Shown: piece by piece, positions 1,571 through 33,623 of the stretch
How the letters are laid out: the number at the start of each line of letters is the position of its first letter
Numbering within the stretch: the stretch's first letter is position 1
DNA from: Candidatus Bipolaricaulota bacterium
GTDB lineage: Bacteria; Bipolaricaulota; Bipolaricaulia; Bipolaricaulales; Bipolaricaulaceae
Direction: 5' to 3'
Length of the DNA: 33,623 bases
Assembly (NCBI GenBank): GCA_938084715.1
Contig: CALKES010000032.1
Coordinates: 1-33,623 of the forward strand
Notes under the pieces: generated by a model
The model's input: only the letters and a program-made list of their open reading frames with translations
The model's database searches: none
Told to the model about the DNA's origin: nothing
Position numbers and translations under genes: made by a program

Positions 1571-2005
1571 GTGCACAACGAAGGCGAGGAGCTCGGCCAC
1601 CTCCTCCTCCAGGTGACGAAGCTCCTCCGGGACCGGGTCCACGTCCGGATGGAGGGGATCGGCCTCAGCCGTGGCCAGGGCCTCGTCCTCTTCCACCTCG
1701 GTCGCGAGGAGGGCCTGTCCCAGGGGGAGCTCGCCCGCCAGACCCTCGTCCGCCCGGCCACCCTGACCGAGGTCCTCCAGCGGATGGAGGCCGCCGGCCT
1801 CGTGGAGCGGCGGGCCGACCCCGCCGATGCCCGGGTGTCCCGGGTGTTCCTGACCGAAGCGGGGGCCCAGGCCCGGGCCCGGGCCGAGGAGATCTGGAAC
1901 GAGCTGGAAGACAAAATCGGGCAGATCCTCCCCCCCGCCGAACGGGCCGAGCTCCGGAAGCTTCTCGCTAAGCTCCGCCACGGACTTGCCCCGGAGGAGC
2001 CGTGA
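1571..2005 (+). CDS. MarR-family transcriptional regulator
   Basis: A 144-residue winged-helix regulator starting at GTG 1571, with TAGGAGG seven bases upstream. Residues about 48-70 (EGLSQGELARQTLVRPATLTEVL) form the helix-turn-helix, followed by the wing signature (GLVERRADPADARVSRVFLT) with the conserved D-x-R pattern of MarR proteins. Its stop overlaps the GTG start of the following ABC exporter subunit (GTGA), so it is the first gene of a three-gene operon. MarR proteins next to multidrug exporters usually repress the exporter until a ligand binds. That role is inferred here from context and from the palindrome in the promoter. Confidence 0.9.
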   Translation: MHNEGEELGHLLLQVTKLLRDRVHVRMEGIGLSRGQGLVLFHLGREEGLSQGELARQTLVRPATLTEVLQRMEAAGLVERRADPADARVSRVFLTEAGAQARARAEEIWNELEDKIGQILPPAERAELRKLLAKLRHGLAPEEP

Positions 2006-3753
2006 GGTCCCTCCTCCGGATGTACCGGTTCGTCAGGCCCTACCGGTGGGCGGCCCTTGGGGCCCTCGCCCTCCTCCTCGGGATGGTGGGCGCGGACCTC
2101 CTCATCCCCCGCCTCACCCAGCGGATCATCGACGTCGGCATCGCCCGGGGGGACCTGCGGACGGTGGGGCTCACCGCCGCCGCGATGATCGGCCTCGCCG
2201 TCCTCAGCACCCTGTTTGCGATCGCCAACACCGTCCTCTCCGTCCGGGTGGGCCAAAGCTTCGCCCACGACGTCCGCAACGCCCTCATGGGGAAAGTTCA
2301 GACGTTCTCGTTTGCCGACCTCGATAAGTTCCGCACGGGCCAGCTCATCGTCCGGTCCACGAGCGACGTGGGGATGGTGGAGATGGTCGTGGCGATGTCC
2401 CTGCGGATCCTCACCCGGGCCCCGGTGTGGATGGTGGGGAGCGTGGTCCTCCTCGTCCTCACCAGCCCCCGGCTGGCGTGGATCCTGGTGGGGTTCATCC
2501 CGGTGATTGCGGTCATCATGGCCATCTTCCTCTCCCGGGGGCGGTCGATGTTCACGGCTGTCCAGGGGCAGCTGGACCGGCTGAACACCGTGCTCCAGGA
2601 GAACCTGGCCGGGGTGCGGGTGGTGAAGGCGTTTGTGCGGGAAGAGCACGAGGCCAGGCGGTTCGATCGGGAGAACGAGGCCCTGATGCGGCGCCAGATT
2701 GGGGTGATGACGTTCTTCGCCGTGCTTGCCCCGACGATGACCCTCCTCGTGAACCTCGGGGTGGTGGGGGTGATCGGGCTTGGGGGGTGGGCCGCGATCG
2801 GGGGCGAGCTCACCGTGGGCCAGGTGGTGGCGTCCGTGAACTACCTCACCTACGCCCTGTTCCCGATGATGCTCATCGCCGGGATGATGGGCCCTCTCTC
2901 CGCGGCCGAGGCCTCCGCCTCCCGGATCCTCGAGGTCCTGGACGCGGAGCCGTCGGTGCGGGAGAGGCCGGGGGCCAAGGCGTGGAAGCCCTCCTCCTCC
3001 CGGGGAGCGAGGGTCGCGTTTGAGGACGTGTGGTTCTCCTACAACGGGGAACCCGTCCTCCGGGGGGTGAGCTTTGTCGCCGAGCCGGGGGAGACGGTGG
3101 CCATCCTCGGGGCCACGGGATCCGGAAAGTCAACCCTCCTCCACCTCATCCCCCGGTTCTACGACGTGACCGCGGGAAGGGTGGCCGTGGACGGGGTCGA
3201 CGTCCGGGACTACACCCTCGCCTCCCTCCGCCAGGGAATCGGGATCGCCCTCCAGGAGCCCGTCCTGTTCACAGGGACGGTCCGCGACAACATCCGCTAC
3301 GGCCGGCCCGAGGCGGGGGACGAGGAGGTGGTCGCCGCGGCCCAAGCCGCCCAGGCCCACGAGTTCATCCTCGAGCTCCCCCGGGGCTACGCCACGGTCG
3401 TCGGGGAGCGGGGGGTGAACCTATCGGGGGGCCAGCGACAGCGGATCGCCATCGCCCGGGCCCTCCTCGTCCGGCCCCGGCTCCTCCTCCTCGACGACAG
3501 CACCAGCTCGCTGGACATCGAAACCGAGGTCAAGCTGCAGGACGCCCTGGACCGGCTCCTGGCCCGGGACATGCCCGCGACCCGGTTCGTGGTCGCCCAG
3601 CGGGTGAGTACGGTGATGCTGGCGGACAAGATCGTGGTCCTGGACGAAGGGCGGGTGGCCGCCCTGGGGACCCACGACGAGCTCATGGAGCGGAGCCCAA
3701 TCTACCAGGAGATCTACGCGTCCCAGCTTGGGGGTGAGGCCCGTGTCCCGTGA
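2002..3753 (+). CDS. Heterodimeric ABC exporter, subunit with degenerate ATP site
   Basis: A 583-residue half-transporter: six-helix exporter domain (about 1-310), then the nucleotide-binding domain. Walker A is GATGSGKST (about 370-378) and the signature is LSGGQ (474-478). Walker B ends LLLLDD, so the catalytic glutamate is replaced by Asp 499, and the switch histidine is replaced by Gln 533 (VVAQRVST). These two substitutions are the known mark of the degenerate-site subunit in heterodimeric exporters of the TM287/288 and BmrCD type. The partner is the next gene. The GTG start overlaps the marR stop by 4 bp. Likely substrates are drugs or lipids expelled across the inner membrane; the sequence does not tell which. 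Confidence 0.9.
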   Translation: MRSLLRMYRFVRPYRWAALGALALLLGMVGADLLIPRLTQRIIDVGIARGDLRTVGLTAAAMIGLAVLSTLFAIANTVLSVRVGQSFAHDVRNALMGKVQTFSFADLDKFRTGQLIVRSTSDVGMVEMVVAMSLRILTRAPVWMVGSVVLLVLTSPRLAWILVGFIPVIAVIMAIFLSRGRSMFTAVQGQLDRLNTVLQENLAGVRVVKAFVREEHEARRFDRENEALMRRQIGVMTFFAVLAPTMTLLVNLGVVGVIGLGGWAAIGGELTVGQVVASVNYLTYALFPMMLIAGMMGPLSAAEASASRILEVLDAEPSVRERPGAKAWKPSSSRGARVAFEDVWFSYNGEPVLRGVSFVAEPGETVAILGATGSGKSTLLHLIPRFYDVTAGRVAVDGVDVRDYTLASLRQGIGIALQEPVLFTGTVRDNIRYGRPEAGDEEVVAAAQAAQAHEFILELPRGYATVVGERGVNLSGGQRQRIAIARALLVRPRLLLLDDSTSSLDIETEVKLQDALDRLLARDMPATRFVVAQRVSTVMLADKIVVLDEGRVAALGTHDELMERSPIYQEIYASQLGGEARVP

Positions 3754-5623
3754 CGAACCCCCTCGGACGGGCCCTGGACCGCGGCCGTTCGCGCCGGGGA
3801 TGCCCGGTCCCGGGGGCCGGGGGATGATCGGAACCCGGATCGAGAAGGCCCGGGACGTGCCGGGAACCCTGCGCCGGCTCCTCCGCTACCTCCGCCCCTA
3901 CCGGGCCCACTTCGCCGCCGTGTTCGTCCTCGCCCTCCTCGCCACGGCCCTGTCCCTCCTCGGCCCGTTCCTCATGGGCCGGGCGATCGACGGGGCGATC
4001 CGCGGCCGCGACGCGGGACTCCTCTTCCGGATCGTCCTCCTCATGGCCGGGACCTACCTCCTCGCGTGGGGGGCCCGCTACGGGGAGAACGTGATCCTGG
4101 CCCGGGCCTCCCAGCGGGCCATGCGCACCCTGAGGGGGGATCTGTTCGGCCACCTCCAGACCCTCCCCCTGCGGTTCTTCGACGCCCGCCCCCATGGCGA
4201 GCTCATGAGCCGGCTCACCAACGACCTGGAGGCCATCAACCGGGTGCTGTCCCAAAACGTGCTCCAGCTCTTCTCGGGGGCGCTGACGGTGGTGGGGATT
4301 CTGGTGATGATGTTTTCCCTCAACCCCCTCCTCGCCCTGGGGGCCCTGGTGGCCTTCCCCCTGATGCTCGGCCTCGTGGGGTGGGTGGGAAAGCACACCC
4401 GCCAGGGCTTCCGGGAGTACCAGAAGAAGCTCGGGGAGCTCAACGGGCAACTGGAGGAGACGTACAGCGGGCAGCGGGTCGTGCTGGCCTTTGGCCGGGG
4501 GGAGGAGGTCCTCCGGTCGTTTGCCCAGGCCAACGCCGCGGTCCGCGACGCCGGGATCCGCGCCCAAACCTACGCCCTCCTCGTCCCGCCGATGATGGGG
4601 ATCCTCTCCAACGCCAACATCGCGATCCTGGCCGGGCTGGGGGGGTGGCTGACGATCCTCGGCCGGGCCAGCGTGGGGACCATCGCCGCGTTCGTAAGCT
4701 ACTCCCGGCAGTTCGCCGAGCCCCTGCGGATGCTCGGGGACCTGTACAACCAAATCCAGTCCGCCCTTGCCGGCGCGGAGCGGATCTTCGAGGCCCTCGA
4801 CACCCCCCCGGAACCCCCCGACCCCCCGGGGGCCGTGGTCCCGGCCGCCGTCCAGGGCCACGTCGTGTTCCGCGACGTCAGCTTCAGCTACGTCCCCGGG
4901 ACCCCCGTCTTGACCAACGTCTCCCTCGAGGCCCGCCCGGGGGAGACGATCGCCCTCGTCGGGCCCACCGGGGCCGGGAAGACCACGATCGCCAGCCTCC
5001 TCGCCCGGTTCTACGACCCGGACGAGGGCGAGATCCTCGTCGATGGGATCGACATCCGAAACCTCACCCGCCAGGACCTGCGCCGCCAGATCGGGATCGT
5101 GCTCCAGCAGACGTTCTTGTTTGCGGACACGGTCATGGAGAACATCCGCTACGGTCGCCTGGGGGCCACCGACGACGAGGTCGTCCAGGCCGCGGTGCTG
5201 GCCCACGCCGACCCGTTCATCCGCAAGCTCCCCGACGGGTACGGAACCGTCCTCACCGAGCGGGGGGCGAACCTAAGCGAGGGCCAGCGGCAGCTTCTGG
5301 CCATCGCCCGGGCGATCCTCGCTGACCCCCGGATCCTCATCCTCGACGAGGCCACCAGCAGCGTGGACACCCGGACCGAAGTGGCGATCCAGGCCGGGCT
5401 GCGGGCGGTGATGCGGGGGCGGACGAGCTTTGTCATTGCCCACCGCCTGTCCACGATCCGCAACGCGGACCAGGTGGTGGTGATCGAGGGGGGGCGAATT
5501 GTGGAGCGGGGGACCCACGACGAGCTCCTGGCTCGGCGGGGGGTCTACTGGCGCCTCCACACAAGCCAGTTCCGGCGCGTGCCGGCCGTCGCCGGGGGAG
5601 GGGGGCCCGGCGCCCCGGGCTAA
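3743..5623 (+). CDS. Heterodimeric ABC exporter, catalytic subunit
   Basis: The second half-transporter, 626 residues from the GTG at 3743, which is preceded by GGGGGTGAGG. TTG 3728 and GTG 3734 in the same frame lack such a site. A Pro/Gly-rich N-terminal stretch of about 40 residues precedes the six-helix domain. The ATPase has Walker A GPTGAGKTT (about 407-415), Walker B ILILDE with the catalytic glutamate intact, and the switch histidine in IAHRLST. Its signature reads LSEGQ rather than LSGGQ. In heterodimeric exporters the odd signature pairs with the degenerate site of the partner, so the two subunits match. It overlaps the preceding gene by 11 bp. Confidence 0.9.
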   Translation: MSRDEPPRTGPGPRPFAPGMPGPGGRGMIGTRIEKARDVPGTLRRLLRYLRPYRAHFAAVFVLALLATALSLLGPFLMGRAIDGAIRGRDAGLLFRIVLLMAGTYLLAWGARYGENVILARASQRAMRTLRGDLFGHLQTLPLRFFDARPHGELMSRLTNDLEAINRVLSQNVLQLFSGALTVVGILVMMFSLNPLLALGALVAFPLMLGLVGWVGKHTRQGFREYQKKLGELNGQLEETYSGQRVVLAFGRGEEVLRSFAQANAAVRDAGIRAQTYALLVPPMMGILSNANIAILAGLGGWLTILGRASVGTIAAFVSYSRQFAEPLRMLGDLYNQIQSALAGAERIFEALDTPPEPPDPPGAVVPAAVQGHVVFRDVSFSYVPGTPVLTNVSLEARPGETIALVGPTGAGKTTIASLLARFYDPDEGEILVDGIDIRNLTRQDLRRQIGIVLQQTFLFADTVMENIRYGRLGATDDEVVQAAVLAHADPFIRKLPDGYGTVLTERGANLSEGQRQLLAIARAILADPRILILDEATSSVDTRTEVAIQAGLRAVMRGRTSFVIAHRLSTIRNADQVVVIEGGRIVERGTHDELLARRGVYWRLHTSQFRRVPAVAGGGGPGAPG

Positions 5624-14788: not shown

Positions 14789-14809
14789 GGCCTCGCCGGA
14801 GGTGAGACG

Positions 14810-16342
14810 GTGAACTGCAAGGCGGGAGGGCTCTTAAGACTCATCCTGGTTCTCGGCGCTTTGGGCGCGGTGGGGGCTGTCACAAAGGCGTGCAGGGTGA
14901 CCGTCCCCCCTGGGCGGTCGATCCAAGCGGCCATCGATGCCGCTCCCCCAGGGGCGGTGATCTGCCTGGAGGAAGGGACCTGGTTCGAAAACCTTGTGGT
15001 GACCCAACCCATCGTGCTGAGCGGAAGGTCGGGGAAGAGCGAGATCGCCGGAGGGAGAGGGGACCTCCCCGTGGTGAGGATCGCGCTCCCTGAGGGGGAG
15101 GACGGGGAGGTCGTCCTGTGGGGACTCAAAGTCACCGGGGGAATCAGCGCGGGCCCCGGGATCTACGTCGGAGAACATGCCGGCGTCACCCTCGACAACG
15201 TGACGGTGGAGGGGTGCGAGCTTCAGGGGCTCTGGGTCGGGGCCCATGCCCAGGTCACGGTCCGGAGCTCCGCGATCCGGGATAACTCCGGGGGAGGGAT
15301 CCGGGCCGAGGGGTTCGCCTGGCTCACGGTGGTCGATTCGGTGGTCTCCCACAACGGCGGGGACGGAATTGCCATCGCCGAGCGGGCCCAAGCTTCCCTG
15401 TCCGGGTCCCGGGTGGAGGGGAACCGGGGCTACGGGGTGCTCCTCCTTGGAGAAGGGTGCGGGGGAGAAGGTGGCCCCTTCGCAGGCCGGGTCACGGGAA
15501 GGAAGAACCTGATCCCCTGGCCGGGCCTCCCGGATGGGAACAGCCGGGGCTCGGTCTGCCCCGACGCCTTGGGGTTCCTCCTCACCGAGGCCGGGGGCGC
15601 GCTCGACCGCCGGCCGGAGCCCGGCCCCACCCTCCTCACAGGCGTCCGGTTCGTCCTCGAGCCCGTGGGCCTGGAGGGCCTACCCCCCCTCTCCCGCCAG
15701 AGGCGGCTCGAGGAGCTCATCGCAGTGCTCCAGGAGCGGCTCCAGGGCTTCCGCTTCTCCCAGGCCGAGGTCCGGCCCCGGGAGGGGAATCGGATCGAGG
15801 TCCTTGTCCCCGGGGTAGCAGACCCCGCTCGGCTCCGGTCCCTCCTCTCCCAGCGGAGCATCCTCACGTTCCACAAGGTGCTCGCCGCCTCCTGCTGCCC
15901 CGGTGACCTCCCCACCCCGGGGCCCGGGGAACTCCTCCTGCCCAACCGGGAGAGGATGGAGTGGTTCCTCGTCGAGGGGGAGCCCCTCCTCACCGGCGAG
16001 GCAATCGAGCAGGCCACCGCCCGGACGTCGGGGGACCCCCGCGCGCCAGGTTACTTCATTCCGCTGCGGTTCACACCCCAGGGCGCGGCCCAGTTCGCTG
16101 CGGCTCTGCAGAAGCTCTCCCCCAACGACCGGCTGGCGATCGTGGTGGACGGAGTCGTGCAGAGCGCCCCGGTGGTCACCTCGTCGATCCTGGAGGCAGC
16201 GCGGCGGGGCGGCCCCGCCGTGCGGGACAGCACCACGATCACCGGCCGCTTCACGCTGGAGGAGGCCCAGGCCCTGGCCGCCGCCCTTGGCGCCGGAGCC
16301 CTTCCCGTGGAGGTCCGGATCGTGGAGGAGGGCCTCTACTGA
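14810..16342 (+). CDS. Secreted parallel beta-helix protein fused to a SecD-like periplasmic domain
   Basis: A 510-residue protein starting at GTG 14810, with GGAGGTGA upstream. An N-terminal hydrophobic stretch (about 8-25) is a signal peptide or anchor. Residues about 30-215 are a right-handed parallel beta-helix: SIQAAIDAAPPGAVICLEEGTW is the classic entry, followed by repeated 20-25 residue coils. Residues about 275-510 match the SecD P1 region: VRFVLEP, an ERL...F...EVRPREGNRIEVLVPGV coil, LTGEAIEQA, FTPQGAAQFA, LAIVVDGVVQSAPVV, and ITGRFTLEEAQALAAAL...ALPV. In SecD this is followed by six membrane helices; here the protein ends instead. Function is unknown; it probably lies in the periplasm or on the surface. 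Confidence 0.75.
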   Translation: MNCKAGGLLRLILVLGALGAVGAVTKACRVTVPPGRSIQAAIDAAPPGAVICLEEGTWFENLVVTQPIVLSGRSGKSEIAGGRGDLPVVRIALPEGEDGEVVLWGLKVTGGISAGPGIYVGEHAGVTLDNVTVEGCELQGLWVGAHAQVTVRSSAIRDNSGGGIRAEGFAWLTVVDSVVSHNGGDGIAIAERAQASLSGSRVEGNRGYGVLLLGEGCGGEGGPFAGRVTGRKNLIPWPGLPDGNSRGSVCPDALGFLLTEAGGALDRRPEPGPTLLTGVRFVLEPVGLEGLPPLSRQRRLEELIAVLQERLQGFRFSQAEVRPREGNRIEVLVPGVADPARLRSLLSQRSILTFHKVLAASCCPGDLPTPGPGELLLPNRERMEWFLVEGEPLLTGEAIEQATARTSGDPRAPGYFIPLRFTPQGAAQFAAALQKLSPNDRLAIVVDGVVQSAPVVTSSILEAARRGGPAVRDSTTITGRFTLEEAQALAAALGAGALPVEVRIVEEGLY

Positions 16343-16367: not shown

Positions 16368-16379
16368 CTAAGGCCTTAG
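16368..16379. promoter_or_regulatory. Dyad CTAAGGCCTTAG next to the blaI promoter
   Basis: A perfect 12-bp palindrome directly upstream of the -35 hexamer. It shares CTAA-N4-TTAG with a second dyad at 16419-16430, 51 bp away (about five helical turns). Candidate binding site for the BlaI-type repressor. Confidence 0.4.
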
Positions 16380-16408
16380 TTGATTCCCCTCCCCCGCCGC
16401 TGTACACT
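16380..16408 (+). promoter_or_regulatory. Promoter of the blaI-M56/WD40 operon
   Basis: TTGATT (16380-16385), a 17-bp spacer and TACACT (16403-16408), followed by a 30-base leader with AGGAGG before the ATG at 16439. Confidence 0.65.
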
Positions 16409-16418
16409 GTGGTGGAAA

Positions 16419-16430
16419 CTAAAACTTTAG
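16419..16430. promoter_or_regulatory. Dyad CTAAAACTTTAG in the blaI leader
   Basis: CTAAA, AC, TTTAG: five-base arms just downstream of the predicted transcription start and adjacent to the AGGAGG site. A second candidate repressor site, matching the CTAA-N4-TTAG form of the dyad at 16368. Confidence 0.4.
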
Positions 16431-16438
16431 GAGGAACC

Positions 16439-16789
16439 ATGGCGGCCAAGAAGAGGCCCGTCCTCACCGATGCCGAACTGGAGATCATGAACGTCCTGTG
16501 GGATCAGGGGGCGTCCCGGGTCCGGGCGATCGTCGACGCCCTCCCCCGCCGCAAGGCCTACACCACCGTCCTCACCCTGCTTGGGATCCTGGAGAAGAAG
16601 GGGTATGTTCGGCACACCGTGGACGGACCGGCCCACGTCTGGCACCCCACGGTGAGCCGGGAGGAAGTGCGCCGGGCCGCCCTCCGCCGGCTCGTCGACA
16701 AGCTGTTTGAGGGCTCGGCCGAGCTCCTCGTGGCCCACCTCCTGAAGGACGAGGAGCTCGGGGGGAAACGCCGAAGGAGGAAGGGATGA
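16439..16789 (+). CDS. BlaI/MecI-family repressor
   Basis: A 116-residue winged-helix protein. LTDAELEIMNVLWDQGASRVRAIVDALP and RKAYTTVLTLLGILEKKGYVRHT are the hallmark BlaI/MecI segments: a dimer-forming DNA-binding domain, with a C-terminal helix that is cleaved upon induction in characterised systems. AGGAGG lies just before the ATG. The stop overlaps the start of the M56 peptidase gene (ATGA), the standard order for a repressor and its membrane metalloprotease antirepressor. No beta-lactamase is nearby, so the regulated function is more likely envelope stress or an unknown target. Confidence 0.92.
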   Translation: MAAKKRPVLTDAELEIMNVLWDQGASRVRAIVDALPRRKAYTTVLTLLGILEKKGYVRHTVDGPAHVWHPTVSREEVRRAALRRLVDKLFEGSAELLVAHLLKDEELGGKRRRRKG

Positions 16790-19749
16790 ACTCCCTCGTC
16801 CTCCATGGGACCGTCCTGGCTGTCCACGTCGTCCTCGTGGGGGCGGCCGTCCTCGTCCTCGGGCTCGGGGTCCGGCCCCTCGCCCGTCGGCTCCACCCCC
16901 GGGCCCAGGCCCTCCTCTGGTCCGCCCTGTTCCTCGCCGCCCTGGCGGGCCCCTTCGCGGCCCGGGTGGCCGGGGTGGACACCCCAACCCCTGTTGCTCC
17001 GACCCGCTCGGCGACGACAGCCCCTGAGACCCCGGCCCCCTCGCCGGGGGCGGCGGCCTCCCCCACCTCCCCGGTGGCCTCCCCTGCCGAGGCCCCTGAG
17101 CCCCGGGGGGGGGCCGAGGCCACGGAGCGAGCCGCTCCGGTCCCCGCCTCCCGGGCCCGGCTCCCCTCGGGCGCCTGGGCCTCGGCGGTCGTCGGGCTGT
17201 GGATGTTCGGCGCAGCGGTCCACCTTGGGCGGGTGGGGATCGGGATCTGGAGGGTGCGGAGGCTCAAGGCGGGGGGGACGCCCCTCTCCCTCCCCGGGGT
17301 GGAGGCGGCGTGGGCGGCCGCCGGCCCTGGCCGGCGCGCGCCCGTCCTCGTCTCCCCGCGGGTCCGGGTCCCCACCGCCGTGGGCTGGCTCCGGCCGGCG
17401 GTCCTCGTCCCCCCGTTCGTGGCCGAGGGCGTCTCCTCCCCCGACCTCGCCCGCCTCCTCCTCCACGAGATCGCCCACCTCCGCCTCGGCCACGACTGGG
17501 CCAAGCTCGGCCAGGAGCTTCTCTCTTCCCTGGTTTTCTTCAGCCCGGCCTTGCCCCTCCTCGCCCGGGAGCTTGCGCGGGCCCGGGAGGGGATCTGCGA
17601 CCTGTGGGCCGTGGAACGGACGGGATCGGCCCGGGTCTACGCCCGGGTCCTCCTGCGGTTTGGGCGCCTGGCCGCCCGTTTGGGACCAGTCCAGGCGGCG
17701 CAGCTTGAGCTCCCAAGTTCCTACCTTCGAAGGAGGATCGCGATGCTGCGAAGCGAACTAGTAGGTCGGCCGTATCGTCGGGCGCGGGCCCTCCTCGGGG
17801 GAGCGCTGGCAGGGGTGGGGATCGTCGCGGCGGTCGCCGCCCTCCCCCCCCTCCTCGTCTTCTCCGAGCAAGGGGTGGCCTGGACTTCCCCGGGGCCGTG
17901 GCGCCAGGTCGCCGGGTGTCCCGCGGAGCCCTTCACCTACGCCTCCCTCTCCGGACACGGGGGCATCCCGGTCGGGCTCGCGTTCAGCCCCCGGGGGGAC
18001 CTCCTCGCCACCGCCGAGCAAGGGACGAACGTGGTCCGCCTGTGGGACGTGAGGACCCTCCGGGAGGTGCGGACCCTGTTCCGCCCGGTCCCAACGCAGG
18101 CGACCATCGTGAACCTCCAGGTGCCCCTCGCCTTCTCCCCCGACGGGCGGCTCCTCGCCGCCGCCGGGGCAGACCCCAGTCCCTACCCGACCCAGGTCCG
18201 AAACAAGGTCTACATCTGGGACGTGGACCGGGGTGAGGTGGTGGCGGAGTTCTACACCGGTGAGCTCGCCCTCGACGCCGCGTTCAGCCCCGACGGAATC
18301 CAGCTCGTGGTGGCCCGGGAGGGGGAGCTCACCGTGTGGTCGCTTCAGGACGGAAGCGAGGTCCTGAAGGTCCGCGATGGGCGGTCGTGGGAGCGGGCGG
18401 CGTGGAGTCCGGACGGGCGCCTCCTCGCCCTCGGGGCGCGCTCCCGGTTCGATCCCACGGTACGGGACGTCACGCTGTGGGACGCGCGGACAGGGGAGCG
18501 GGTCGCGGCCTGGGGTGCGGCCGGGCCGGAGGTGGCCTTCTCCCCAAGAGGGGATTACCTCGCGTTCCCCACCCGGGACGGGGAGGTGTGGCTCGTCACC
18601 CTCGCCACGGGAGACGTGGTCCTCCGTCTCCCCGCCCACCCCGACGGCCCCGTGGCGTTCGCCCCGGACGGGACCCTCATCGCCCGGGCTCCGGACGGCT
18701 CCCTCCGGGCGTGGCGGGTCCCCGGGGGTGAGCCGGTGTGGACGCTTCCAGGAGCGGGGTGGCCCCGCTTTGCCGTCCACCCCGCGGGGAGGATCGTCGC
18801 CGTGGCCACGGGGTACGACCTCACCGTCCGCCTGTGGGACGTGGGGCGGGGCGAGCCCGTGGGCACCCTCCCTGGCCACCGGGCCACGGGGCTCCTTGCC
18901 GCCTCGCCGAGGAGCGGGCGGGTGGCCGTTCGGGCCGGGGCGGAGGTCACCCTGGGGGAGCCACCCTTCGAGGGGCCCGTCCGGACCCTCTCCCACCCGG
19001 GGCACGTGAGCGCCCTGGCGTGGGACCCCACCGGGAACCTCCTCGCCGCCGGCGTCCGGGGGGAAGTCCACCTCTGGGACCTGAGGACGGGTGAGCGGAG
19101 GGTCCTCCCCAGCCGAGGGGGTGAGATCCTCAGCCTGGCCTTCTCCCCCAACGGCCGAACCCTCGCCGCGGGGGGAGGGGATCAGGCGGTGATCCTGTGG
19201 GACCTCGAACGGGGGGAGGTCCGGACGGCCCTTCCCCAGCCCGGGGGGCGGGTGACCTCCCTCGCCTTCAGCCCCGACGGCCGAACCGTGGCGGTAGCCT
19301 TGGGGTTCACCGATTACCTCCCACTCACCCTGTGGGACGCCGCCACTGGGGAGAAGCGGGGGGAGTACCCCAACCACGGGGTGTGGGCGGCGTTCCGACC
19401 CGACGGAAGCCTCCTCACCTTCCGTACGGACCCCCTTCGCCCCTCCATGGACCTCGTCGTCCTCGACCCCACGAGCGGGGAGGGAAGAATCGTGGTGGAG
19501 AACTGGTACTGGTACCCCCTGGACCTCGACCCCACGGGCCGGTACCTCGCCGCCGGGGGGCGGATCGATGACCCCTACCTCCGGATCCTGGACCTCGAGG
19601 CAGGGGAGTGGGGGGCCGCGGTCCCGACGGGGGTCGTAGGGAGCATAGCGTTCGGCGCCCACGGACTCCTCTTTGTCTCCGGTACCGGGACGTTCCCCTC
19701 CCTCGGGGCCCTCGCCGCCTTCCACCTCGGGGGGATCCTGAAGCCGTAG
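16786..19749 (+). CDS. BlaR1-type M56 membrane metallopeptidase fused to WD40 propeller
   Basis: A 987-residue protein. Predicted membrane helices lie at about 8-28, 41-62 and 130-155, with a Pro/Ala/Thr-rich loop (65-125) between the second and third. The M56 zinc site HEIAH (227-231) is in [15 protein letters not shown], with a likely third ligand in REGICDLW (about 268). A fourth helix (about 336-358) leads to an extracytoplasmic C-terminal part. Instead of a penicillin-binding sensor this part (about 385-975) consists of WD40-type blades with recurring [17 protein letters not shown] and [10 protein letters not shown] motifs. By analogy with BlaR1 the propeller would sense a signal and the protease would inactivate the upstream repressor. 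Ligand unknown. Confidence 0.8.
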
Positions 19750-19769
19750 CCTTCAAGAGGAACTCCGGA

Positions 19770-19803
19770 CCCCCGGCCCACCGCGGACCGGGGGCTCTTT
19801 TCT
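19770..19803 (+). terminator. Rho-independent terminator after the M56-WD40 gene
   Basis: CCCCCGG, an 11-base loop, CCGGGGG, then CTCTTTTCT; it begins 21 bases after the stop codon. This is the clearest intrinsic terminator in the window. Confidence 0.75.
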
Positions 19804-19880
19804 CCTGGGGGAACAGGCCCTCGGGGGATCGTGGAGGCCCCGGTCCTCCGCGGGGCGGTCTGGTAAGCTTTCCGTGGGCT

Positions 19881-20204
19881 ATGGCCGATCGGAAGCTCGC
19901 CGTGGAGCGGGGGGAGCTCTTTGGGGTCCTCGGCCCGAACGGCGCGGGGAAGACGCCGCTCGCCAAGATCCTCGCCACCCTCCTCTCCCCCACCTCGGGA
20001 ACCGCCCGCGTTCTGGGGATCGACGTCGTCGAGAACCCTCGGGAGGTCCGCCTCTCGACGGGGATGCGGCAGAAGATGAACTCCGCCTGGGGGTTCCTCA
20101 CGGATCCGGAGGTCCTGTTCCTCGACGTGGGGACGGCCCGGGCCCTGCGGTTCTTCGAGGACCTCGCCCGGCGGGAGGGCGCCTCACGCTGCGGGGGCCA
20201 GTGA
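19881..20204 (+). pseudogene. Decayed ABC transporter ATPase
   Basis: An open frame of 107 codons that looks like an ATPase of some 300 residues with internal deletions. It keeps the start ([20 protein letters not shown]), though the Walker A is followed by Pro where Thr is usual. Then come [31 protein letters not shown] and, without the usual Q-loop region, [24 protein letters not shown]. The EPT-x-GLD stretch after Walker B and the whole switch region are missing, and the frame continues with [19 protein letters not shown]. It cannot form a working ATP site. Alternative: a short derived protein with a new role, which I consider unlikely. Confidence 0.65.
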
Positions 20205-20641
20205 GGGAGAGCGTGGACGCCCGCGCCGTCAAGTCCCGCCTGGGGGAGGCGGGGCGGAGCTTCGCCGTGGGAGCGTGGCTTGGCTGGCAGATCGCGTCGA
20301 ACTGGACGGACCCGTTCCTGTTCGCGGTCTACTCCGTGGTCAAGCCCGTGGCCGGGGCCCTCTACCTCCTCTCGGGGGTCGTCTTCCCCCTGGGCGTTCT
20401 CCCGGCTCCCCTCCAAGCCCTCGGAAAGGCGCTCCCCACGACGTACTGGCTCGAGGCGCTGCGCCGGGCCCTCCTCGGGGACGGGGGGAGCGCGGCCCTG
20501 GGCGACGTCCCCACGGGGACGCTCGTCCTGGTCCTCGCCCTGTCCGCGACAGTCCTGGCGCTCGCCGCGGTCCTCGTCTTCCGCCTGGCGGAGGGGATCG
20601 CCCACCGGCGGGGGCTCCTCGACATGCAGACCACGCACTGA
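20201..20641 (+). pseudogene. Decayed ABC-2 type permease
   Basis: A 146-codon frame starting at GTG 20201 that overlaps the ATPase remnant's stop (GTGA). It begins like drug/polysaccharide ABC-2 permeases (GAWLGWQIASNWTDPFLFAVYSVVKP) and jumps directly to the C-terminal half: LSGVVFPLGVLPAPLQALGKALPTTYWLEALRRALLG, then a last membrane helix. The middle helices are absent. Both genes of the pair therefore show in-frame internal loss, consistent with a dying transporter operon. It lies seven bases upstream of the GNAT gene. Confidence 0.6.
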
Positions 20642-23348: not shown

Positions 23349-24242
23349 ATGCGGACTTGGACTTCTGTCGCGCTGTGCGCGCTCCTCGGCCTGGCCGGGC
23401 TCGGGCAGGGGTGTGTTCTGACGATCGTTGGGGACGGGGTGGAGGGCCGGTACCTCCCCGGAGTCCCGTACGTGTCCCAGCCGCCGCCGAACCCGTTAGG
23501 GTTCCCGTCCGTGGACCACTGGAGCGGCCCCCTGGCCGCGGCGGGCGCGATCGCCTACCTTGCCACCACCGTCGGGGGCTGGCCCCGGGGGGTGACCGGG
23601 AACCTCACCCCCGGCGAGCTCAGCGCCTACCTCGGGTACTTCACCGCGACAAACGGCCTGGGCAGCCCCGACCGGGCGAACGCGGCACTCGGCCTCCCCG
23701 GCACGATCGTGGACGACCTCGTGGCCGGGATCCGCGAGTACGCGCGCTGGGACCCAGTCCATCGGTTCCGGACTCCACCCCCGCCCATGCTCAACAAGGC
23801 GGGGTTCGACGCCGAGGTCGTGTTGATCGAGGGGCAGGGTCTTGTCCCCGCCCGGTACCAGGAGGCCCTCAACCGGGGCAGCCCGCCGCTCGTGGTCTTC
23901 CGCTACTGGAACCCAGTGGACAGTGGCCGCGCGATGTGGGTCACCGGTTCGGGGTATCGGGTTTATGTTCGGTTCTACACCTGGGGCCCGGAGATCCGGT
24001 CCAGCACCCAGAGCTCCCTCTCCGGCCCCGGGGTCCCCCGGGAGGCGTGGGATCCCGACCGCGGGGTTGGCCACGTGGTCGTGGGTGAGGGGTATCTGAT
24101 CGGCGATCCCGACGGGCCCGGCCCCCTACCGAACACCCTGTGGCTCCTCGTCCGCGACACGTGGGCCGCCACCGCAGAGCACGGGGCGATCCCCTGGGGA
24201 CAGGTGTCCGCCCTGGTGCTCCTCGGGCCGCCGCGGAATTGA
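23349..24242 (+). CDS. Secreted protein with C39-like papain fold, catalytic Cys replaced
   Basis: A 297-residue protein with a signal sequence (about residues 6-21) ending GLGQGC, possibly lipidated though the lipobox is imperfect. After it comes GVPYVSQPP...SVDHWSGPLAAAGAIAYLAT. The order PYVSQ followed by a [CS]GPxAAxxxxxYL helix recalls bacterial C39-type papain-fold proteins, where the residue before GP is the catalytic cysteine; here it is serine. GHVVVGEGYL (about residue 240) and the LLVRDTW that follows could be the His and Asn/Asp strands. It may be a non-proteolytic binding protein. The assignment is from motif order only. Confidence 0.45.
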   Translation: MRTWTSVALCALLGLAGLGQGCVLTIVGDGVEGRYLPGVPYVSQPPPNPLGFPSVDHWSGPLAAAGAIAYLATTVGGWPRGVTGNLTPGELSAYLGYFTATNGLGSPDRANAALGLPGTIVDDLVAGIREYARWDPVHRFRTPPPPMLNKAGFDAEVVLIEGQGLVPARYQEALNRGSPPLVVFRYWNPVDSGRAMWVTGSGYRVYVRFYTWGPEIRSSTQSSLSGPGVPREAWDPDRGVGHVVVGEGYLIGDPDGPGPLPNTLWLLVRDTWAATAEHGAIPWGQVSALVLLGPPRN

Positions 24243-31480: not shown

Positions 31481-31606
31481 GGGGAGCACGGCCCGGAAGC
31501 CCAGGTTGTTGTTCTCGTTGCTGGGCCCGTTGTTGTTGCGATTGGCGACGCGGCAGTTGTAGGCGTTGTCCTTCCAGCTGCCGCCGCGGATCGCCCGGTT
31601 CGTGCC
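31481..31606 (-). ncRNA. DGR template repeat (TR)
   Basis: 126 nt, 51 nt downstream of the reverse transcriptase stop on the same strand. It aligns without gaps to the variable repeat at 33218-33343. Read in the target's frame it encodes 42 residues without stops, 11 of them asparagine (ten AAC and one AAT codon), the typical adenine-loaded design of DGR templates. The RNA made from here would be copied by the reverse transcriptase with errors at adenines. The 25 nt at its 3' end (31505-31481) contain no sense-strand adenine and are identical in both repeats, which fits the homing-initiation segment. Confidence 0.92.
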
Positions 31607-31657
31607 GCTGGACAGAACCCCATCTCCCTCACTTGCCCTTCCTGGCCTCAGGAACGC

Positions 31658-32662
31658 TCACGGGACCACGCTTACCCGCCCGACGACCGCCCGCCGGAAC
31701 CCAGCGGTGTCCGCGAACCTCACGTAGGCCAGGAGCGGCTCCACGTGGCGCTGTAGCTCCTCCTCAGACCAGTCCCCCCTCTCCCAGCGCCCCTCGTAGC
31801 CCGCGAGCCTCCGGGCGAACCGCCGCCGTGCCCGGGAGCCGAGCCTCACCTGGCCTGGAAAGACCCGGTACCCCAGGAACGGGAGACCGCGCGTGCTCCG
31901 GTTCAGCTGCACGTCCGCCTTGAGGGTCAGCCTGAGCCGGGAGCGGAGGTACGCCTCAATGGCCACCTGGTGGCCCCGCAGCGTCGCCCTGTCCTCCCCC
32001 CACAGGACGAAGTCGTCCATGTAGCGGACGTAGCCGCGCACCCGGAGGGTCTCCTTGACCCAGTGATCCAGGGGCCCGAGGTAGAGGTTCGCGCAGTGCT
32101 GGGAGATGAGGTTCCCAATCGGGAGCCCCTTCCCGGGCGTCGTCTCGTAGGTGCCGACAAACGTGCGGAACAGCCGGAGGAGCCGCCGGTCCTTGAACCT
32201 CGTCCCGAGGAGCCCGAGGAGCACCTCGTGGTCCACCGAGTCGAAGTAGCGCGCGACGTCGAGCTTGAGGTACCAGGGGAACCGTCGAGCGAAGGCCTGC
32301 GCCCGCCGGATGGCGGCATGAAGGCCCTTCCCCTTCCGGCAGGCGTAGGAATCGGGAATCGCGTAGCGCTCGAGAACAGGTTCGCACACGTTCATGACCG
32401 CGTGGTGGAGGACCCGCTCCGGGAACGGGGCGGCGCAGATGACCCGCTCCTTGGGATCGCGGATCGTGAAGAACCGGTAGGCTCCCACCGATACCGCCTC
32501 CCGGAGCAAGTCCTCCCGGAGCCGGGCCAGGTTCTCGTCTAGGTGGGACGCGTACTGCCGCACCTCGGCCCGATCCCGCTTCCCACGGCTGGCCTTCCAG
32601 AACGCAAGCCGGAGGTTTTCTGGGTCGGCGATCCGCTCGTAGAGGTTCCCGACCCGCCTCAT
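31658..32662 (-). CDS. DGR reverse transcriptase
   Basis: A 334-residue RNA-dependent DNA polymerase of the group II-intron-like/DGR clade. Catalytic aspartates lie in LKLDVARYFDSVDH (about Asp 135) and YMDD (214-217). Motif 4 reads GLPIGNLISQHCANLYL (179-195), with the IGN-x-x-SQ form that marks DGR enzymes instead of the QG of other reverse transcriptases. RGLPFLGYRVF is the expected motif 6/7. No maturase or endonuclease domain follows, as usual for DGRs. The ATG overlaps the HRDC gene stop by 4 bp. It would copy the template RNA mutagenically at adenines. Confidence 0.95.
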   Translation of the reverse strand: MRRVGNLYERIADPENLRLAFWKASRGKRDRAEVRQYASHLDENLARLREDLLREAVSVGAYRFFTIRDPKERVICAAPFPERVLHHAVMNVCEPVLERYAIPDSYACRKGKGLHAAIRRAQAFARRFPWYLKLDVARYFDSVDHEVLLGLLGTRFKDRRLLRLFRTFVGTYETTPGKGLPIGNLISQHCANLYLGPLDHWVKETLRVRGYVRYMDDFVLWGEDRATLRGHQVAIEAYLRSRLRLTLKADVQLNRSTRGLPFLGYRVFPGQVRLGSRARRRFARRLAGYEGRWERGDWSEEELQRHVEPLLAYVRFADTAGFRRAVVGRVSVVP

Positions 32663-33165
32663 CGGGCCTCCTCCCGTTCCGGTGCGTCGGGATCGGGCGA
32701 CCGGGGGTCGGTCGAGGGCTCGGCCCCGCGGACCAGGCCGAGGACGGCCTCGCCGTACTTCTCAAGCCGGGCCTGGCCGACACCTGCGATCGAGCCGAGC
32801 TCGGCCTTCGTCCCGGGCCGCAGCCGGGCCACCGCCGCGAGCTGCTCGTTCGTGAAGATCGTGTACAGGGGGACCCCCTCCTCCTCCGCGGCCGCCTTAC
32901 GCCACTGGCGCAAGCGGACGAACACCGCGAAGTCCTCCGGGGCGAGGAGCTGCTTGTAGTCGGGCCGGGCTCCGCCGGACTTGCCGGGACCTTCCGCGGG
33001 GGGGCCCTCCAAGAACTCCACGACGAGCGCCCAGTACGAGCCGGGGCCCGCTGGGACGAACTCCCGCCCGACGGCGAGCACGCGGTGGGAGCGGAGGAAC
33101 CGGTTCAGCTCTTCCTCAGCAGCCCGGTCGCCCGTCGCCCGAACGGAGAAGAAGCGAAGTTGCAC
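32659..33165 (-). CDS. HRDC-domain DGR accessory protein
   Basis: A 168-residue protein with a GTG start at 33165 and GAGGGG upstream. Residues 1-55 form a beta-rich domain (MQLRFFSVRATG...YWALVVEFLEG). Residues about 79-146 are an HRDC domain (FAVFVRLRQWRKAAAEEEGV, then PLYTIFTNEQLAAVARLRPG) with a GIAGVGQ-like turn (SIAGVGQARLEKYG). HRDC domains bind nucleic acids in RecQ and RNase D. In some DGRs an HRDC protein occupies the place of Avd, the usual accessory factor that binds the reverse transcriptase; no Avd-like gene is present here. It lies between target and reverse transcriptase, 40 bp after the former. Confidence 0.85.
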   Translation of the reverse strand: MQLRFFSVRATGDRAAEEELNRFLRSHRVLAVGREFVPAGPGSYWALVVEFLEGPPAEGPGKSGGARPDYKQLLAPEDFAVFVRLRQWRKAAAEEEGVPLYTIFTNEQLAAVARLRPGTKAELGSIAGVGQARLEKYGEAVLGLVRGAEPSTDPRSPDPDAPEREEAR

Positions 33166-33205
33166 CCCTCACCCCCTCCTCCGGCGCCGCGTCGCCAGAC
33201 CCCGC

Positions 33206-33623
33206 TCACGGACCTACGGGGAGCACGGCCCGGAAGCCCAGGGAGTTGTCCTCGCTGCTGGGCCAGGCGTAGTTGCGAAAGGCGACGCGGCAGTTGTAGC
33301 CGTAGACCTTCCAGCTGCCGCCGCGGAACGCCCGGCCCGTGCCCGACGCCGGGCCCCGGGGGTCGGTCCCCGGGGACGAGGCGTAGTAGTCCCTGCTCCT
33401 CCAGTCCCAGCACCACTCCCCCACGTTCCCCGCCATGTCGTAGAGGCCGTACCCGTTCGGGGCGAAGCTCCCCACCGGGCTCGTGTAGGGCTCGCTTCCG
33501 GTCTTGTACGTGGGGTGGTAGCCCCGGGTCGGGCCCGTGTCGTAGCGGTAGCTCGAAGAGCTCCAGTAGTTCGCCCGGCTGTGCCCGATCGTGTCGGTGT
33601 CGCACCACGGGAACCGGTGCCCC
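33206..33623 (-). CDS. DGR variable target protein, formylglycine-generating-enzyme/C-lectin fold (partial)
   Basis: The 3' part of a gene whose start lies outside the window. The visible 138 residues begin HRFPWCDTDTIGHSRANYW and contain TRGYHPTYKTGSEPYTSPVG, FAPNGYGLYDMAGNVGEWCW and DPRGPASG, then FRGGSWK and end LGFRAVLPVGP. This is the FGE-sulfatase (SUMF1) family, whose C-type-lectin fold is the commonest scaffold of DGR targets. The last 45 codons include the variable repeat, which stops four codons before the TGA. DGR target proteins typically display the variable residues in a ligand-binding pocket. An enzymatic formylglycine role is unlikely. Confidence 0.92.
   Translation of the reverse strand, partial: GHRFPWCDTDTIGHSRANYWSSSSYRYDTGPTRGYHPTYKTGSEPYTSPVGSFAPNGYGLYDMAGNVGEWCWDWRSRDYYASSPGTDPRGPASGTGRAFRGGSWKVYGYNCRVAFRNYAWPSSEDNSLGFRAVLPVGP
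33218..33343 (-). repeat. DGR variable repeat (VR)
   Basis: 126 nt, exactly 42 codons in frame, at the 3' end of the target gene. Against the template it shows 16 substitutions and no gaps. Fourteen fall on template adenines (of 31), two on the other 95 bases. They change 12 of 42 residues, for example Asn to Gly, Phe, Tyr, Ala, Ser and Asp. The adenine-free 3' end (33242-33218) is unchanged. Confidence 0.93.

Follow-up and report, generated by a model that had tools for sequence, protein, structure and literature searches.

A probable BlaI/BlaR1-type antirepressor pair with a predicted tandem WD40 propeller in place of the penicillin-binding domain in a Candidatus Bipolaricaulota bacterium

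The analyzed stretch of DNA (hereafter the window; 33,623 nucleotides) originates from a Candidatus Bipolaricaulota genome (G000; 1.38 Mb, 38 contigs, 96% complete). Its plus strand contains an intact open reading frame (16786-19749) for a 987-aa protein, in which an M56 membrane metalloprotease is joined to approximately 600 residues of WD40 repeats. The Pfam family Peptidase_M56 covers residues 16-321 (69.1 bits; cut-off 31), and WD40 (PF00400) matches roughly residues 388-987 (133.5 bits; cut-off 27); these matches, placed within a single ORF, confirm the preliminary description of a BlaR1-type M56 protease with a HEIAH motif (residues 227-231) followed by about 600 residues of WD40-like blades. 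Directly upstream of this receptor gene, on the same strand, is a blaI-like gene (16439-16789) encoding a 116-aa repressor of the BlaI/MecI/CopY family. The repressor comprises a winged helix and a dimerisation part and scores 98.6 bits with PF03965 (cut-off 22.6); phmmer aligned nearly all of it with structures of MecI/BlaI (E 3e-8 to 1e-7). The ATG at 16439 is a likelier start of blaI than the GTG at 16409, because it is preceded by AGGAGG. The TGA stop codon of blaI overlaps the ATG of the receptor gene (ATGA), in agreement with the translational coupling described previously. These are the sole M56 gene and the sole BlaI gene found in the G000 genome, and a search of that genome for the class A beta-lactamase family (PF13354) gave no match.

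The same gene pair was identified in G028, a genome representing another genus of the same family, whose contig C33 carries blaI and an M56-WD40 gene in the same order. The G028 protein (987 residues) shows 42% identity to the receptor over residues 5-986 (982 residues); because it is a full-length orthologue accompanied by its own blaI, the fusion is real and not an assembly chimera. In the window, the stop codon of the receptor gene is followed immediately by a possible, weak terminator (19767-19800, plus strand; z only -1.5), composed of a GC-rich hairpin and TCTTTT, and beyond it by an apparently decayed ABC-2 transporter (19874-20638), represented by a truncated, frame-shifted ATPase gene and a permease fragment. 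At the equivalent place behind the receptor gene of G028 there is a strong 13-pair terminator, with a gene on the opposite strand beyond. Given the terminator and the opposite-strand gene of G028, and the hairpin followed by the decayed transporter in the window, the operon appears to be limited to blaI and the receptor gene. The gene neighbors of the pair are not conserved between the two genomes, with the exception of a PLP-dependent enzyme gene, which adjoins the receptor gene in G028 and lies 15 kb upstream in the window.

Two other elements of the window were distinguished. Directly upstream of blaI (approximately 14800-16342) is a gene for a predicted secreted protein combining a right-handed beta-helix (NosD-like) with a SecD P1 head domain. 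A diversity-generating retroelement occupies positions 31481-33343 of the minus strand and consists of (i) a reverse transcriptase gene (PF00078; 31658-32662), (ii) a gene for an HRDC accessory protein (32659-33165), (iii) a template repeat (31481-31606) and (iv) a variable repeat (33218-33343), all on that strand. The two repeats share 87% identity over 126 bp, with 14 of the 16 mismatches at template A positions, and the variable repeat ends a protein whose sequence resembles the formylglycine-generating-enzyme/C-type-lectin fold.

The M56-WD40 and blaI pair is present in only 2 of 40 genomes of the family (G000 and G028). Across 100 genomes of the phylum, M56 and BlaI are each represented by five convincing genes, which form five adjacent pairs (one each in G000, G028 and G043, and two in G068), in each of which blaI is located directly upstream. 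The M56 proteins of G043 and G068 have the same catalytic residues as the window receptor; they differ from it in their C-terminal parts (roughly 200-400 residues), which have no Pfam match and no WD40 repeats. Since all five pairs are adjacent and only the G000 and G028 receptors contain WD40 repeats, M56 and BlaI go as a unit, of which the sensor is the variable part. Outside the phylum, the search of a genome-contig collection for the fusion matched only exported WD40 proteins lacking an M56 part. No plasmid was found to carry the M56 part of the window protein fused to WD40, and the search of viral contigs for relatives returned nothing. A plasmid of the planctomycete Aquisphaera (L141, 3464-6481) encodes, immediately behind blaI, a 1005-aa M56 protein whose long C-terminal part matches neither WD40 nor any other Pfam family. 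No report linking M56 or BlaR1 with WD40 was found in the open-access literature searched, which is not proof of absence.

The predicted cytoplasmic metalloprotease (residues 153-340; 17242-17805, plus strand) contains the motifs H227-E228-x-x-H231 and E268-x-x-x-D272, as well as Y285 and R317. These zinc-site and active-site residues are invariant in an alignment of four M56 proteins (A1), the profile of which matches the BlaR1 cryo-EM chains 8exp/8exs (E 4e-16 to 6e-16) with the zinc-site residues in register; the four-sequence profile was needed for this, since phmmer with the window M56 part alone gave no BlaR1 match in the PDB. The BlaR1 active site is composed of HExxH, E242xxxD, Tyr261 and Arg294 (PMC9834060), where R317 is equated with Arg294 through its position in a conserved RR motif that lies beyond the stretch aligned by the HMM. 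Because the active-site residues of BlaR1 are kept, the protease is expected to be active. Direct cleavage of BlaI by BlaR1 has been demonstrated (PMC9834060). The residue aligned with the near-invariant scissile P1' Phe of BlaI in BlaR1/MecR1 systems is Leu in the repressors of both the window and G028. If the window BlaI is cleaved, the cut would be expected near H/L in LLVAHLLKDEEL, a position that is approximate because of the Leu in place of Phe.

The C-terminal part of the receptor (residues 388-987; 17947-19746, plus strand) contains approximately 14 WD40 blades, as read from its sequence and in line with Pfam, modelling and its relatives. In the PDB, its sequence is matched best by the highly repetitive propeller protein 2ymu. 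Residues 369-987, modelled by AlphaFold with 12 sequences, gave a pLDDT of 72 and a pTM of 0.52, so that the placement of the propellers relative to one another is uncertain. Foldseek with this model again gave 2ymu as the top match (E 1.5e-29; a full-length tandem-propeller match), together with 5i2t and 1nr0. According to the model, the C-terminal part is made up of two tandem seven-bladed WD40 propellers. The structures 2ymu, 1nr0 (AIP1) and 5i2t (Pwp2) likewise have about 14 WD40 repeats arranged in two propellers; in contrast to the receptor, they include no membrane protease, and the eukaryotic ones are intracellular.

A closely comparable protein is encoded in G010 (contig C53; L032, 7499-9532): a free-standing, exported tandem WD40 propeller of 677 aa with its own signal peptide. 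It can be aligned end to end with the receptor propeller (597 positions, 37.5% identity), including the last residues, and is colinear with it from the first to the last blade; at E <= 1e-40 the G010 propeller had no match in any other of the 40 relatives searched. This colinearity suggests that the receptor was assembled by joining an exported binding protein to the membrane protease at its fourth transmembrane segment (TM4). Outside the phylum, several exported WD40 proteins visibly end in a cytochrome c-like part. The G010 protein and these alphaproteobacterial WD40-cytochrome c proteins resemble the receptor in having a homologous propeller outside the cytoplasm, and differ from it in being free-standing, with a signal peptide and with neither a protease nor a blaI gene.

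Hydropathy and positive-inside charge predict four transmembrane segments with an N-out/C-out topology, as in BlaR1. TM1 (residues 10-28) and TM2 (43-61), encoded at 16813-16968, are separated by a positively charged, presumably cytoplasmic loop (4 K/R, 0 D/E). They are followed by an Ala/Pro/Thr-rich loop (approximately residues 62-133; 16969-17184), predicted to lie outside at the position of BlaR1 EL1, by the weak TM3 (residues 134-152; 17185-17241) and, after the protease segment (153-340; 29 K/R, 12 D/E), by TM4 (residues 341-359; 17806-17862). A neutral to acidic composition characterizes loop 65-133 and the propeller. A full-length single-sequence AlphaFold model of the receptor (pLDDT 47) was too poor to use. 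The low hydropathy of TM3 in the window protein (1.52) might point to a different arrangement, in which, for example, this segment does not span the membrane and the propeller serves as an intracellular scaffold; we consider this very improbable, as the value is 2.1 in the G028 orthologue, and the charge pattern, the homology to BlaR1 and the signal peptides of related propellers all point outward. In the propeller alignment, the signal peptide of the G010 protein sits where TM4 of the receptor is, and among the related propellers of the phylum that were inspected, most begin with signal or lipoprotein peptides. On the basis of hydropathy, positive-inside charge, BlaR1 homology, and the signal-peptide-bearing G010 propeller and its relatives, the receptor propeller is thus very probably located outside the membrane, as had been proposed; the cytoplasmic placement that would have contradicted that proposal was not seen.

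The blaI promoter was read from the sequence as TTGATT (16380-16385) and TACACT (16403-16408), separated by a 17-nt spacer (16380-16408, plus strand). A consensus promoter scan did not pick it up; the orthologous promoter of G028 (TTGACA-17-TATACT) has the same spacing and a score of 11/12. Two palindromes of the form CTAA-N4-TTAG accompany this promoter: O1, CTAAGGCCTTAG (16368-16379, plus strand), which abuts the -35 box, and O2, CTAAAACTTTAG (16419-16430, plus strand), which begins ten bases past the -10 box and extends into the blaI ribosome-binding site. The corresponding sites of G028 are CTAACGAATTAG and CTAATTCTTTAG, and their geometry is that of the window: the 51-bp spacing from start to start, O1 abutting the -35 box, the 17-nt spacer and the placement of O2 are the same in both genomes. 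In a search for exact CTAA-N4-TTAG sites, suggested earlier as a means of defining the regulon, each of the two whole genomes proved to contain two copies, in both cases at the blaI promoter, which they flank as paired palindromes, with no exact copy elsewhere. Because two unlinked chance matches per promoter in two genomes are not credible, O1 and O2 are very likely BlaI operators, and the blaI-receptor operon is very likely autoregulated. The paired sites at the shared promoter make the regulatory link between the receptor and BlaI, as previously supposed, a strong one; the lack of such a link, which would have contradicted the earlier proposal, was not seen. The targets of the system, previously regarded as open, can be narrowed: no further target was found, the sole exact sites being those at the pair's own promoter. 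The examined locus around the M56-BlaI pair of G043 contained no exact CTAA-N4-TTAG.

Six sites with one mismatch to the operator were detected in G000, two of them in the window (at 1499, near marR, and at 23488). The other four comprise CTAACGCGTTAA on contig C31, two sites at gene ends and one without a clear promoter; CTAACGCGTTAA is present identically in G028 and is read, from its sequence, as part of 16S rRNA. Apart from the marR site, none is a convincing promoter site, and the one-mismatch sites were rejected as BlaI targets. When pairs of sites with up to three mismatches were searched for in G000, one further place was found (1499-1561). Here a palindrome, CCTCCTAACGATTAGGAGG, precedes marR (1571-2005) and the pair of ABC exporter genes behind it. 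BlaI might have further targets with degenerate operators; the foremost candidate would be this marR-ABC-ABC export operon (1571-5623), with the propeller controlling an exporter: CTAAGTGGGTAG and CTAACGATTAG lie around a TTGACT/TATCCT promoter with the same 51-bp spacing. We regard this as quite unlikely. CTAACGATTAG, which adjoins the start of marR, is a palindrome with a spacer of 3 bases and belongs to a longer one; relative to the -35 and -10 boxes, the two sites are also placed differently from those at blaI. Moreover, a similar palindrome, very like the BlaI operator save for its spacer length, recurs in front of marR in same-genus relatives; the genomes whose marR orthologues have it include G001, G002, G003, G010 and G011, all of which lack BlaI. 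A second BlaI target was therefore rejected as the best reading of the pair at 1499-1561, whose palindrome is best taken as the operator of MarR itself, with cross-regulation by BlaI a slight possibility.

The system resembles the BlaR1/MecR1 and BlaI/MecI pairs of Staphylococcus aureus and Bacillus licheniformis (PMC9834060), with which it shares the M56 gluzincin motifs HExxH...ExxxD and the matching Tyr and Arg, the adjacent BlaI and, very likely, the self-controlled promoter, as well as, by prediction, the four transmembrane segments in N-out/C-out orientation and the C-terminal sensor outside. The sensor is different: instead of a penicillin-binding domain, the receptor has a WD40 double propeller, and no transpeptidase or beta-lactamase Pfam match was present among the 25 of 32 families listed for it. 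With the NCBIfam model blaR1_generic the receptor scores 32.8 bits, against a cut-off of 400. The operators of BlaI/MecI are of the TACA-N-TGTA type, as opposed to CTAA-N4-TTAG here. BlaR1/MecR1 systems control a beta-lactamase or a resistant penicillin-binding protein, whereas no such target was found here by the search for PF13354 and for exact operators. As the defining penicillin-binding sensor is absent, the receptor is not BlaR1 proper, though it would work like BlaR1.

A very small BlaI regulon has a precedent in Clostridium thermocellum, where the regulons of BlaI_1845 and BlaI_0696 are of this kind, one being confined to its own operon (PMC8457756). These repressors, like the one described here, regulate themselves and have two ordered inverted-repeat sites at the controlled promoter. 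They differ in their motif (GTCTAT/GACTAT, compared with CTAA-N4-TTAG), and the BlaI_1845 operon includes two further genes, one possibly concerned with peptidoglycan (PMC8457756), whereas the operon in the window apparently consists of blaI and the receptor gene only.

We consider it likely that the two genes encode an antirepressor pair of the BlaI/BlaR1 type, in which a tandem seven-bladed WD40 propeller, drawn from an exported propeller family, stands in for the penicillin-binding domain. By analogy with BlaR1, we infer the ligand, the cleavage of BlaI and the output as follows. BlaI dimers bound to O1 and to O2 would shut the promoter lying between them. A ligand outside the membrane, which to judge from the binding partners of WD40 propellers is probably a protein or a polymer of the cell envelope, would engage the propeller and shift TM4. 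The cytoplasmic M56 site would then cut BlaI within the C-terminal region responsible for dimerisation, which would release the bicistronic operon from repression. The primary output would be more repressor and more receptor, since the sole exact operators in the genome are at the operon's own promoter, and, barring further targets with degenerate sites, the receptor would itself be the likeliest effector, through its propeller or its protease. The circuit may even be closed, with BlaI controlling only itself and the receptor, and with the response consisting of more propeller-protease at the surface, the receptor itself being the effector; this we put forward tentatively, as a possibility with clearly less than even odds. 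The location of the exact operators would also suit another function, that of a surface binding or scaffold protein with a regulated membrane anchor, whose M56 part tunes only its own amount and whose propeller does not signal. The closest free-standing relative, the soluble exported propeller of G010, and the changed P1' residue of BlaI speak for such a function, which nevertheless seems unlikely to us, as the retention of all zinc-site residues and of the pairing with blaI in two genera would be unnecessary for a mere anchor.

As an antirepressor pair, the system probably senses something other than penicillin, because the WD40 propeller replaces the penicillin-binding domain and the operator occurs only at the pair's own promoter. 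BlaR1-type receptors are known almost wholly as sensors of beta-lactams, and in general M56 proteins also occur with C-terminal domains of other kinds. The protease and repressor parts are members of established families; what is new here is the tandem seven-bladed propeller as sensor, combined with an apparently closed regulon. With an exact operator pair and so small a genome, the question of the regulon can be put to a direct test, and the pair would represent a familiar cytoplasmic protease and repressor coupled to an unrelated sensor in the form of a double WD40 propeller.
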